Assembly: GCF_900230285.1 (NCBI RefSeq)
Contig: NZ_OCNK01000002.1
Coordinates: 682,001-746,000 of the forward strand
Length of the DNA stretch: 64,000 bases
Origin: Blastococcus haudaquaticus
GTDB lineage: Bacteria; Actinomycetota; Actinomycetes; Mycobacteriales; Geodermatophilaceae
Direction: 5' to 3'
This document shows positions 57,220 through 62,060 of the stretch, one piece after another. Under the pieces are notes generated by a model. It saw only the letters and a program-made list of their open reading frames with translations. It was not told where the DNA came from and did not search any database. The first letter of the stretch is position 1. Every line of letters begins with the position of its first letter. The position numbers and the translations under genes are program-made.

Positions 57220-58314
57220 TCAGCGTCGGGCGCGGTCCTCGTCGGTCTCGTCGGCGATGCGGGCCTCCGCGGCGGCCGCGGCCTCGGGGCCGCCGGTCGG
57301 TACGGACTTCGCCGTCTCCGGGTCGACCACCGGCTCGTCGGCGCCGATCAGCTGACCGCGCGTCTTGAGCAGGCTGGCGACCGTCGCGATGACCAGCACG
57401 CCCAGGATGATCGAGAGCGAGAGCCAGATCGGGATGTGCGGCACCGCCTCGATCGGCTCGCGCTCACCGGCGAACGGCAGCTGGTTCTCGTGCACGGCCT
57501 CCAGGATCAGCTTGACGCCGATGAAGGCCAGGATGACCGCCAGCCCGAGCGACAGGTAGACGAGCCGCTTCAGCAGACCGCCGAGCAGGAAGTACAGCTG
57601 GCGCAGGCCCATGAGAGCGAAGACGTTGGCCGTGAAGACGATGAACGGCTCGCGGGTGAGACCGAAGATGGCCGGGATGCTGTCGAGCGCGAAGATCAGG
57701 TCGGTCGTGCCGAGCGCCAGGATGACCACGATCATCGGCGTCCACATCTTCTTGCCGTTCTCGCTCACCCGGATCTTCGCGCCGTGGAAGTCCTTGGTGA
57801 TCGGCAGGATCTTGCGCATCCGCCGGATGAACGCGTTCTCCTCGTAGTCCTCGTCCTCACCGCGGTGCCGGACGAGGTTGAACGCCGTGTAGATCAGGAA
57901 GATGCCGAAGATGTAGAAGACCCACACGAACCGCTCGATGACCACGGCGCCCAGCAGGATGAAGATCCCGCGCAGGACGAGCGCGATGATGATGCCGATC
58001 ATCAGCGCTTCCTGCTGGAACTTCCGTGGCACCTGGAAGCGCGCCATGATGATCACGAAGACGAACAGGTTGTCCACCGAGAGCGAGTACTCGGTGAGCC
58101 AGCCCGCGTAGAACTCCGTCGCGTAGGTGCCGTTGGTGAACGCCAGCATCAGCAGGCCGAAGACCAGCGCCAGGCTGACGTAGAAGGTCACCCAGAGGCC
58201 GGCCTCCTTGAGTGAGGGCTCGTGCGGGCGACGGGCGACGATGGCGAGGTCCGCGAGCAGCAGGACCGTCAGCCCCACGAACGTCGTGATCTCGAACCAG
58301 ACGGGAAGTTCCAC
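57220..58314 (-). CDS. TerC family membrane protein (copy 1)
   Basis: A 364-residue protein with about nine helices. Conserved acidic residues in membrane helices are seen in SVDNLFVFVIIMARF and LGTTDLIFALDSIPAIFG. TerC proteins export metal, mainly manganese, or help load exported metalloproteins. The C-terminal tail is acidic (ETDEDRARR). The GTG start at 58314 sits eight bases after TAGAGT, so a leaderless mRNA is likely. It lies downstream of copy 2 but is separated by a very strong hairpin, so it appears to be transcribed on its own. Confidence 0.92.
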   Translation of the reverse strand: MELPVWFEITTFVGLTVLLLADLAIVARRPHEPSLKEAGLWVTFYVSLALVFGLLMLAFTNGTYATEFYAGWLTEYSLSVDNLFVFVIIMARFQVPRKFQQEALMIGIIIALVLRGIFILLGAVVIERFVWVFYIFGIFLIYTAFNLVRHRGEDEDYEENAFIRRMRKILPITKDFHGAKIRVSENGKKMWTPMIVVILALGTTDLIFALDSIPAIFGLTREPFIVFTANVFALMGLRQLYFLLGGLLKRLVYLSLGLAVILAFIGVKLILEAVHENQLPFAGEREPIEAVPHIPIWLSLSIILGVLVIATVASLLKTRGQLIGADEPVVDPETAKSVPTGGPEAAAAAEARIADETDEDRARR

Positions 58315-58322
58315 GGGGCCTC

Positions 58323-58328
58323 ACTCTA
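58323..58328 (-). promoter_or_regulatory. -10 element of leaderless terC copy 1 promoter
   Basis: TAGAGT on the minus strand, eight bases before the GTG at 58314. It shows that copy 1 has its own promoter after the terminator. Confidence 0.5.
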
Positions 58329-58381: not shown

Positions 58382-58420
58382 CGCGTCGCTGCGGAGCCGG
58401 TCCGGCTCCGCAGCGACGCG
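58382..58420 (-). terminator. 19-bp perfect hairpin between the two terC genes
   Basis: Arms 58382-58400 and 58402-58420 are fully complementary around a single T. It starts 5 nt after the stop codon of terC copy 2 and should end that transcript. Confidence 0.8.
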
Positions 58421-58425
58421 GTCAC

Positions 58426-59529
58426 TCAGCGGTGCACCGGATCGTTCACCGGGACAGCGGTGGTGCGGTCGACGTCGGCGTCCACCTCGACGGGCTCGGG
58501 CGTGACGACGGCGCCGCGCTGCTCGGCACCCTCGGCCCCGGCCGGCAGGTGCTCGGCGCGGTCGCGCCGGTTCCTGGCCAGGCTCGCGACCGTCGTCACG
58601 ACGAGGGTCAGCAGGATGACCGACAGCGACAGCCAGGTCGGGATCTCCGGGATGGCGGTCACGTGCTCACCGCCGTTGATGAAGCCCAGCTCGTTCGTGT
58701 GCAGGGCGTGGATGACGAGCTTGACGCCGATGAACCCGAGGATGACCGCGAGGCCGTAGGACAGGTAGACCAGCCGGTCGAGCAGTCCGTCGATGAGGAA
58801 GAACAGCTGACGCAGGCCCAGCAGCGAGAAGGCGTTCGCGGCGAAGACCAGGTAGGTCTCCTGGGTGAGCCCGAAGATCGCCGGGATGGAGTCGACCGCA
58901 AAGAGGATGTCGGCGCTGCCGATGGCGATGAGCGCGATGGCCAGCGGGGTGATGTACCGCTTGCCATCGATCCGCACCGCCATCTTGTCCGAGTGGTACT
59001 CGTCCGTGGTCGGGAAGACCTTCCGGGCGGCCCGCAGGAGGATGTTCTCCTTGTAGTCCTCGTCGCCGTTGTGACCGCCACTGCGGGCCTGCGCCCACGC
59101 GGTGTAGATCAGGATCGCGCCGAAGAGGTAGAAGACCCAGCTGAAGTTCTCGATGGCGGCGGCGCCGACGACGATGAAGACGGTGCGCAGCACGAGCGCG
59201 AACGTGATGCCGTAGAGCAGCACCTTCTGCTGCAGTTCCCGCGGGACCCCGAAGCTGGCCATGATCAGGACGAAGACGAAGAGGTTGTCGATGGACAGGC
59301 TCTTCTCGGTGATGTAGCCGGCGAAGTACTCGCCACCGAACTGGGCACCGTAGAACCAGAAGATCAGCAGTCCGAACACGACCGCGATGCCGACGTAGAC
59401 GCCGGACCAGATCGCGGACTCACGCAGGGTCGGCGCGTGCGGGGTCCGCACGTGGCCGACGAGGTCGAAGATCAGCATCCCGACGATCAGACCGATCGTG
59501 AGAGCCCACACCCAGACAGGGACATCCAT
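58426..59529 (-). CDS. TerC family membrane protein (copy 2, riboswitch-controlled)
   Basis: A 367-residue paralogue of the downstream gene. Matching acidic helix motifs are SIDNLFVFVLIMASFGVP and SADILFAVDSIPAIFG; the N-terminus is VPVWVWALTIGLIVGMLIF. A yybP-ykoY-type RNA lies directly upstream, and its family controls manganese export genes, including TerC/Alx-type proteins. That strongly supports Mn2+ as the relevant metal. The ATG at 59529 has CCGGAGG at good spacing, and that ribosome site is the part the riboswitch hides. Confidence 0.93.
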   Translation of the reverse strand: MDVPVWVWALTIGLIVGMLIFDLVGHVRTPHAPTLRESAIWSGVYVGIAVVFGLLIFWFYGAQFGGEYFAGYITEKSLSIDNLFVFVLIMASFGVPRELQQKVLLYGITFALVLRTVFIVVGAAAIENFSWVFYLFGAILIYTAWAQARSGGHNGDEDYKENILLRAARKVFPTTDEYHSDKMAVRIDGKRYITPLAIALIAIGSADILFAVDSIPAIFGLTQETYLVFAANAFSLLGLRQLFFLIDGLLDRLVYLSYGLAVILGFIGVKLVIHALHTNELGFINGGEHVTAIPEIPTWLSLSVILLTLVVTTVASLARNRRDRAEHLPAGAEGAEQRGAVVTPEPVEVDADVDRTTAVPVNDPVHR

Positions 59530-59538
59530 AGAGCAGTT

Positions 59539-59666
59539 CCTCCGGCAACTGGCAGCAGTCAGTACCGGAGGTCTCTCCCGCCGCAGGCCAGGGCCGGCGA
59601 CCGACGGGACCGGAGATCACGGGATCTCGTACTGACGGCCCTGCCGCGTGGGGATACTCCCCTCCA
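59539..59666 (-). ncRNA. yybP-ykoY manganese riboswitch with SD-sequestering platform
   Basis: Read on the minus strand. The conserved first loop GGGGAGTA is at 59662-59655, followed by a stem-loop. The second loop segment CCGTCAGTACGAG is at 59638-59626, another GC stem follows, and the 3' signature GAGAGACCTCC is near 59577-59567. These are the paired loops that bind Mn2+ in this class. GGAGG (59666-59662 region) can pair with CCTCC to close the P1 helix. Beyond it CCTCCGG (59571-59565) is an exact complement of CCGGAGG (59545-59539), the ribosome site of terC copy 2, so ligand binding would free the site and switch translation on. The call rests on pattern; no covariance model was run. Confidence 0.85.
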
Positions 59667-59875
59667 CGAACCACCGGGACGAGCGCGCGCATCAGCGCCC
59701 GCACTCCGTGTGGTCCGTTCTCTGCAACGGTGACGGGCGCCCGACAGTTCCGCCACGGGCGATCTTCCGCTGAGAGCCGGGTCACACGGGGCTGTCAGCA
59801 CACGGAGCCCCCGCTCCCGGCACCGGGACCGGCTCGACGTCGCACGAGGTGACGGCGAGCCCGCGTCGAGCCGGA
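59667..59875. other. Spacer between terC riboswitch and uvrB terminator
   Basis: No credible gene is seen. It should hold the promoter for the riboswitch-terC transcript, but I could not pick a convincing -35/-10 pair. Confidence 0.5.
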
Positions 59876-59930
59876 GCGATGTGCAACCGTGGCGCCTCCC
59901 CGGCCGGACGTCGCCATGGATGCACATCGC
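59876..59930 (-). terminator. Long hairpin after uvrB
   Basis: GCGATGTGCA (59876-59885) pairs exactly with TGCACATCGC (59921-59930). The inner bases CCGTGGCG and CGCCATGG continue the stem with one wobble. It begins 10 nt after the uvrB stop. Confidence 0.6.
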
Positions 59931-59939
59931 CGCCCGGTT

Positions 59940-62060
59940 CTAGGCGTGGGCGGCGTCGAGCTGCCGGAGCTCCTTCTTCAGCTCGGTCAGCTCGTCCCGC
60001 AGGCGCGCCGCGACCTCGAACTGCAGCTCCCGCGCGGCGGCGAGCATCTGGTCGTTCATCTGCGAGATGAGGTCGGCCAGCTCGTTGCGCGGCAGGCCCT
60101 GCGTGTCGATCGCCCCGGCCTTGGCCTTCTTGTTCTTCGAGGACAGCCCGGGCACCGGCGCCTTCCCGCGGGACTGCTGCCGGCCGGAGCCACCGATGAG
60201 CTCCGCCGAGGACTCCGAGTCCTCCGCCTCCCGGTAGATGCCCTCGAGGATGTCGACGATCTTCTTGCGCAGCGGCTGCGGGTCGACCCCCCGCTCGAGG
60301 TTGTAGGCGACCTGCTTCTCGCGGCGCCGGTCGGTCTCCTCGATCGCCTGCGCCATCGACGGGGTGATCTTGTCCGCGTACATGTGCACCTGGCCGGAGA
60401 CGTTGCGCGCCGCCCGGCCGATCGTCTGGATCAGCGACGTGCCCGACCGGAGGAAGCCCTCCTTGTCGGCGTCGAGGATGGCCACGAGGGAGACCTCGGG
60501 CAGGTCGAGACCTTCGCGCAGGAGGTTGATGCCGACGAGCACGTCGTACTCGCCCTGGCGCAGCTCGCGCAGCAACTCCACCCGGCGCAGGGTGTCGACC
60601 TCCGAGTGCAGGTAACGCACCTTGATGCCGAGCTCGAGCAGGTAGTCGGTGAGGTCCTCGGCCATCTTCTTGGTCAGCGTGGTGACCAGGATCCGCTCGT
60701 CCTTCTCGGTGCGGATCCGGATCTCGTGGACCAGGTCGTCGATCTGCCCCTTGGTCGGCTTGACCACGACCTCCGGGTCGACCAGACCCGTCGGGCGGAT
60801 GACCTGCTCCACGAACTCACCGCCTGTGCGGCCCAGCTCGTACTTCCCGGGCGTCGCCGACAGGTACACCGTCTGGCCGATCCGGTCGGTGAACTCCTCC
60901 CACTTCAGCGGGCGGTTGTCCATGGCCGACGGCAGCCGGAACCCGTGCTCGACGAGCGTCCGCTTGCGGCTCATGTCGCCCTCGTACATGCCGCCGATCT
61001 GCGGGACGCTCACGTGCGACTCGTCGATGACCAGCAGGAAGTCGTCCGGGAAGTAGTCGACGAGGCAGCTGCCGGCGCTGCCGGGCATGCGGCCGTCGAT
61101 GTGCCGTGAGTAGTTCTCGATGCCGGAGCAGAAGCCGACCTGGCGCATCATCTCGATGTCGTAGGTCGTGCGCATGCGCAGCCGCTGCGCCTCCAGCAGC
61201 TTGCCCTGCCGCTCCAGCTCGGCGAGCCGGGTCTCGAGCTCGGCCTCGATGCCGCGGATGGCCCGCTCCATCCGCTCGGGGCCCGCGACGTAGTGGGTCG
61301 CCGGGAAGACGAACAGCTCCTCGACCTCCCGCACGACCTCACCGGTGAGCGGGTGCAGGTAGTAGAGCCGCTCGACCTCGTCACCGAACATCTCGATCCG
61401 GACGGCGAGCTCCTCGTAGACCGGGAAGACCTCGATCGTGTCCCCGCGCACGCGGAACGTGCCGCGGGTGAAGGAGAGGTCGTTCCGGGTGTACTGCTCG
61501 GTGACCAGGGTGCGCAGCAGGTCGTCGCGGTCGCGGGACTCGCCCAGCCTGATCTTCAGCGCCCGCTCCACGTACTCCTGCGGGGTGCCCAGGCCGTAGA
61601 TGCAGGAGACGGTGGCCACGACCACGACGTCGCGACGGGTGAGCAGGCTCTGCGTAGCCGAGTGGCGGAGCCGCTCGACCTCGTCGTTCACCGAGGAGTC
61701 CTTCTCGATGTAGGTGTCCGTCTGCGGGACGTACGCCTCGGGCTGGTAGTAGTCGTAGTACGAGACGAAGTACTCGACGGCGTTGTTCGGCAGCAGTTCC
61801 TTGAACTCGTTGGCCAGCTGCGCGGCGAGCGTCTTGTTGGGTGCGATGACGAGGGTCGGGCGCTGCACCTGCTCGATCAGCCAGGCCGTGGTCGCCGACT
61901 TGCCGGTACCGGTGGCGCCGAGCAGGACGACGTCCTTCTCCCCGGCGTTGACCTTCTCGGCGAGCGCCTTGATGGCCGCCGGCTGGTCACCGGAGGGCTG
62001 GAACTCGCTGACGACGCGGAAGCGCCCCTGCGTAGGCCGGAGATCCGTCATGGTGGGCAC
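59940..62060 (-). CDS. uvrB: Excinuclease ABC subunit B
   Basis: A repair helicase of about 706 residues. Walker A is [13 protein letters not shown], Walker B has [11 protein letters not shown], the beta-hairpin region has [20 protein letters not shown], and [11 protein letters not shown] is motif III-like. The C-terminal UVR motif is [20 protein letters not shown]. The GTG at 62060 lies seven bases after TACCGT, so a leaderless mRNA starting MPTMTDLRP is likely; the ATG at 62051 is the alternative. uvrA and uvrC are also in this window. Confidence 0.96.

Follow-up and report, generated by a model that had tools for sequence, protein, structure and literature searches.

A probable manganese-responsive riboswitch with a three-way junction upstream of terC copy 2 in Blastococcus haudaquaticus

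The locus raises the question of whether the leader of terC copy 2 in Blastococcus haudaquaticus is a metal-sensing RNA and, if so, at which step it controls its gene. The window is the whole 64,000-nucleotide stretch of DNA that was analysed; the leader is read on its minus strand, and a position n in the aptamer equals 59670-n in window coordinates. The controlled gene starts with an ATG at 59529, and its protein matches PF03741 (E 1.2e-50) and TIGR03718, named 'R_switched_Alx' (E 3.2e-114). The leader is very probably a Mn2+-sensing yybP-ykoY riboswitch with a three-way junction that controls terC copy 2 translation. Earlier work already describes the class, its ligand, a member with a three-way junction (PMC9495176), and actinobacterial terC leaders (PMC3890552).

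Conserved motifs, fold, and class membership

The original prediction named three signature motifs in a fixed order before terC copy 2, and they are present on the minus strand as GGAGGGGAGTA (L1), CCGTCAGTACGAG (L3), and GGGAGAGACC (3' side of L1). The span it gave, 59539-59666, runs exactly from the 5' strand of P1.1 through the end of the ribosome site. No strong common promoter box was found upstream of the aptamer, where TANNNT stands at one position in 15 of 81 leaders. Single-sequence MFE folding of the leader gave a z of -0.69 and a fold that differs from the proposed one, so folding of this one sequence would not have revealed the element.

The evidence comes from relatives of the gene. 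Searching species genomes with the TerC2 protein yielded 80 loci, mainly from Blastococcus, Geodermatophilus, Modestobacter, and Micrococcales, and (G)GGGAGTA, CGTCA, and AGACC occur in this order upstream of the start codon in all 80 terC relatives; stricter motif patterns missed one piece in L066 and L083. Because the order is kept throughout and a model built from Micrococcales leaders only also matches the window, the motifs are not regarded as a product of chance. Once redundancy was removed, 68 leaders remained, and in these the L1 core, CGUCA, and the far-side CGG of L3 are invariant. The leaders fit a three-way junction composed of P1.1 (6 bp), L1, P1.2 (4 bp), P3.1 (8 bp), L3, P3.2, and P4 (Table 1).

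In the alignment of these 68 leaders, 89.5% of cells are paired and 21 of the 30 pairs show two-sided changes. Doubly changed cells number 252 against a shuffled mean of 88.8, and none of 500 shuffles reached 252; sliding the helix partners out of register abolishes the covariation signal. RNAalifold, unaided, predicts P1.1, P1.2, P3.1, and P4, the same helices of the three-way junction that the covariation supports. The 19 Micrococcales leaders taken alone are 95.8% paired, with 34 doubly changed cells versus 10.2. When the two groups are aligned jointly they match poorly at P3.2, and this helix scores lower in that alignment. At the third pair of P1.1, 55 of the 68 leaders have GC and 13 have AU, and the first two G residues on the 5' side of L1 are also paired within P1.1. 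The window itself carries one A-C mismatch in P3.1 and one C-U mismatch in P4.

Table 1. Features of the terC copy 2 leader and the adjoining genes, in window coordinates
Feature	Position	Strand	Remarks
Riboswitch leader of terC copy 2	59669-59539	minus	
P1.1 5' strand (UGGAGG)	59661..59666	minus	partner is the switch strand
Loop L1, 5' side, GGGGAGUA	59655..59662	minus	invariant in 68 sequences
P1.2 5' strand UCCC	59651..59654	minus	two-sided CG to UA changes, one pair, 20/68 sequences
P3.1 5' strand CGGCAGGG	59639..59646	minus	helix with two-sided changes in 6/8 pairs
Loop L3, CGUCAGUAC	59629..59637	minus	CGUCA invariant in 68 leaders
P3.2 hairpin GAGAUC-CCGU-GAUCUC	59613..59628	minus	perfect 6-bp hairpin, covarying in part
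L3 3' side CGG	59610..59612	minus	invariant in 68 leaders
P3.1 3' strand UCCCGUCG	59602..59609	minus	same helix covariation as the 5' strand
P4 hairpin, third arm of the three-way junction	59580..59601	minus	sequence varies, pairing mostly retained, many two-sided changes
P1.2 3' strand GGGA	59576..59579	minus	P1.2 pairing and covariation
L1 3' side GAGA (part of GAGAGACC)	59572..59575	minus	GAGA 79/81, AAGA 2/81
Switch strand CCUCCGGU	59564..59571	minus	predicted to pair with P1.1 5' strand (ON) or ribosome site (OFF)
Ribosome site region GCCGGAGG	59539..59546	minus	complementary to switch strand
terC copy 2, 367 aa, TerC/Alx family metal homeostasis membrane protein	58426..59529	minus	PF03741, TIGR03718
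TAGAGT, -10-like box, 8 nt before terC1 GTG	58323..58328	minus	TANNNT at such distance in orthologues
terC copy 1, neighbouring paralogue downstream of terC copy 2	57220..58314	minus	PF03741 E 7e-50

The original prediction proposed an RF00080 search as its check, with a missing match as refutation, and that search was negative: RF00080 matched nothing in the window at its gathering threshold, nor in 571 bases at E <= 10. Weak miRNA-type matches in the leader at E <= 10 were set aside as chance hits on GC-rich stems. RF00080 has one match in the organism's own genome at E <= 0.001, which scores 27.9 bits in a genome search and precedes a gene for a GDT1 antiporter (PF01169, E 4.1e-40); cmscan with RF00080 did not recover this site, and positive controls were therefore run on two regions of E. 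coli K-12. RF00080 gave no match to the alx leader (L121:4373-4499) even at E <= 10, and 41.6 bits for mntP, below its 45-bit cut-off. Since alx is missed and mntP falls short, a missing RF00080 match cannot refute membership, and such a match is not treated as defining the class.

Two covariance models were built from leaders instead. R1 comprises 64 terC leaders including that of the window, and R2 comprises Micrococcales terC leaders only, with the window's family absent; their E-values come from a short calibration and are rough. R2 finds the window at 59669-59565 with 70.9 bits (E 1.1e-13) and E. coli alx with 46.3 bits (E 3e-8), while R1 scores 43.1 bits on alx (E 2e-8), 17.9 bits on mntP (E 0.012), and 59.8 bits on the same stretch of the GDT1 leader that RF00080 matches. 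This leader is a second class member in the same genome (L001:1486-1587, minus strand, contig C6), in which GUCGACAUG replaces the CGUCANNAC loop.

The terC copy 2 leader is accordingly assigned to the yybP-ykoY class on sequence grounds: both leader-based models find alx, R2 finds the window, and R1 and RF00080 converge on the GDT1 leader. The assignment in the original prediction thus holds on the conserved core, covariation, the R1 and R2 matches to alx, and the set of downstream genes. The leader has the L1 core, GGGGAGUA and AGACC, framing P1.1 and P1.2, and an L3 with the invariant metal-contacting adenosine (UCA), matched to A41 by spacing. It shows statistical kinship with experimentally studied members (alx and mntP), and of the cation exporter families that the class precedes (TerC, GDT1/UPF0016, P-type ATPase, MntP), a member follows the RNA at 27 of 30 loci of the phylum search. 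The four-way junction P1-P4 of the solved structures is absent, and the leader forms a three-way junction that lacks the P2 arm; this is not treated as excluding it, because a three-way member has been described (PMC9495176). It could be argued from the lack of an RF00080 match that an unrelated regulatory RNA has converged on short G-rich motifs. Such convergence is strongly disfavoured and highly improbable, as E. coli alx is recovered by R1 (E 2e-8) and by R2 (E 3e-8) and as motifs, motif order, surrounding helices, and gene set are all concordant.

The E. coli alx leader, which is reported to be a Mn2+ riboswitch, has GGGGAGUA, CGUCANNACG, and GUGAGACC in order, an equal helix order in the model alignment, and control of a TerC/Alx exporter. 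It is likewise not matched by RF00080, and differs in being A+U-richer and in carrying a long additional stem in the P4 region. The solved L. lactis yoaB and X. oryzae RNAs share the L1/L3 metal core and the Mn2+-stabilised P1.1 switch helix (PMC6754395, PMC9190785, PMC11087558), but they are four-way junctions acting on transcription, whereas the present leader is a three-way junction predicted to act on the ribosome site. C. glutamicum cg2157 (terC) also has an actinobacterial terC leader, with an Rfam prediction and a 5'-UTR observed in RNA-seq (PMC3890552); it scored 49.1 bits with an older Rfam model.

Ligand and translational control

The yybP-ykoY class is reported as Mn2+-ON (PMC9190785, PMC11647493), P1.1 is stabilised by Mn2+ in L. 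lactis (PMC11087558), and manganese frees the ribosome-binding site in E. coli mntP (PMC11647493). By analogy, the ligand of the terC copy 2 leader would be Mn2+, and high manganese would turn exporter production ON, a direction taken from the class and from the two pairings. The spacing of L3 matches the metal-site nucleotides U39, C40, A41, U44, and C45 listed in PMC9190785, and the A at 59633 is the likely counterpart of A41 of L. lactis, the invariant Mn2+-contacting adenosine.

The same class and fold could instead respond to another cation or a mixture, such as Ca2+ with Mn2+, or be strongly gated by alkaline pH. The S. pneumoniae mgtA riboswitch, which shares the three-way junction, is described as switching on transcription of an ATPase gene in response to Ca2+ as well as Mn2+ (PMC9495176); variants of altered metal specificity are expected in the class (PMC7266159), alkaline pH favours Mn binding by the E. 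coli mntP riboswitch (PMC11647493), and the R1-linked ATPase that was tested is closest to PMR1-type Ca2+ ATPases. This reading is nevertheless unlikely, given that the L3 adenosine and L1 core are unchanged, that the controlled gene is of the TerC/Alx type (NCBIfam R_switched_Alx), and that the nearest known RNA, found by both R1 and R2, is E. coli alx.

In the preferred mechanism, a Mn2+ riboswitch acting on translation, the RNA would fold as P1.1-L1-P1.2, P3.1-L3-P3.2, and P4, with the P2 arm absent. Without Mn2+, the 3' strand of P1.1, CCUCCGG, would pair with the ribosome site CCGGAGG and keep initiation off. Mn2+ would dock L1 onto L3, P1.1 would close, and the freed ribosome site would allow the TerC/Alx exporter to be made; the choice between ON and OFF would be decided during transcription. 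The complementarity behind this scheme was part of the original prediction, and CCTCCGG (59571-59565) and CCGGAGG (59545-59539) are indeed exact reverse complements, although the spacing between them measures 19 nt rather than the 20 claimed. The Shine-Dalgarno (SD) sequence GGAGG occupies 59543-59539, 9 nt upstream of the AUG, and the strand at 59571-59564 can either close P1.1 or cover this site.

The claim of a translational switch by competing pairings gains support from two comparisons. Over 31 phylum-wide loci, in which the P1.1 strand and the ribosome site compete for one strand, the switch strand matched its own downstream site with a mean of 17.9 versus a permuted 14.3 +/- 0.48, and none of 5000 permutations was as high; here every locus is treated as independent, and the score is that of the best 8-mer anywhere in about 95 nt, not just at the annotated SD. 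A few loci, such as L091, L096, and L098, lack a good ribosome-site match. Imposing P1.1 and P1.2 makes the SD cheaper to open in all 68 leaders, with the median going from 9.0 to 2.6 kcal/mol, a drop that arises partly by construction, as the strand is shared; in the window's leader, folded with 160-179 nt, opening takes 8.5-9.2 kcal/mol before and about 4 kcal/mol after. Within the close-relative alignment, covariation between switch strand and SD was not significant, and both strands hardly vary there. By predicted energy the OFF hairpin is the more stable state, by 3.5 kcal/mol when only the named helices are counted and by about 13 kcal/mol between two constrained folds, so Mn2+ docking and co-transcriptional folding order must tip the balance.

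Control might instead be exerted mainly at transcription, with Rho or another attenuator acting on the leader when it is left untranslated in the OFF state, and with sequestration of the SD as a secondary effect. E. coli mntP joins a translational riboswitch with Rho-dependent termination (PMC11647493), and in at least one actinobacterial relative, L106, a U-tract terminator overlaps the P1.1 strand (R1 match at L106:1501-1598). For the window leader this is improbable: no intrinsic terminator-like site was found in it, the ribosome site, which lies 9 nt from the AUG, is part of the OFF hairpin, no T run follows that hairpin, and the conserved feature is complementarity to the SD.

The neighbouring terC gene

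terC copy 1 has no significant R1 match in its leader and no clear SD in its start region. The TAGAGT box 8 nt before its GTG suggests, from sequence, a leaderless transcript. Of 37 terC1 orthologues, 10 are preceded by a riboswitch of their own, another 20 (19 by pattern and the window's by eye) show TANNNT at the leaderless distance, and 7 have neither; in close relatives (L004-L051), the gene has either the leaderless-like start or its own riboswitch with an SD and ATG. On a quick terC1 protein tree, the riboswitch or leaderless label changes at least six times, with at least two changes forced by well-supported branches, and the near sisters L006 and L007 differ in this label. A divergent second riboswitch-controlled terC stands back to back with the first in L012, L015, L026, and L034 (minus strand, 1893-2742), and L014 retains only a degraded remnant of it.

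Two inverted repeats flank terC copy 2 and its leader. A perfect 19-bp repeat at 58382-58420, between the two terC genes and with no T run after it, is a possible terminator or mRNA-end hairpin. A strong repeat at 59862-59946, after uvrB, gives weak microRNA-model matches on both strands and is probably the uvrB transcript end.

Distribution and meaning

In draws of 150 Actinomycetota genomes, R1 matches at least 34 and RF00080 at least 4, none of them above its cut-off; both counts are lower bounds because stricter filters were applied in both. Within the window's family, 35 of 40 genomes have an R1 match. At 30 loci from the phylum search, the window's own among them, the downstream gene encodes TerC in 17, a P-type ATPase in 8, GDT1 in 2, and another protein in 3, as assigned by tblastn with three reference proteins and by Pfam for five loci. 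The three others are, one each, a Na/Ca exchanger, an M50 protease, and PurC. R1 matches precede an M50 protease with a CBS domain at L112:1632-2828 and a Na/Ca exchanger family protein at L115:1616-2944. PurC (SAICAR synthetase, L106:1723-2607) is an unusual neighbour of the R1 match in L106 and may have its own promoter.

RF00080 misses most copies in Actinomycetota and even E. coli alx, so the lack of a match says little in this phylum, and the difference between 34 and 4 genomes would extend the known Mn2+ regulon. A broader reading is tentative and rather doubtful: the actinobacterial three-way-junction RNAs may constitute a large subclass invisible to Rfam, with a wider or shifted cation range and with a tandem terC pair evolving as one copy swaps between riboswitch control and a leaderless start that is presumably constitutive. 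Of practical interest are the copies that the current Rfam model overlooks and the alternating control of paired terC genes. The pairs of switch strand and matching ribosome site from the different loci amount to a natural mutational series for the translational mechanism. For Blastococcus haudaquaticus, an actinobacterium of soil and rock, the leader clearly predicts control by manganese.
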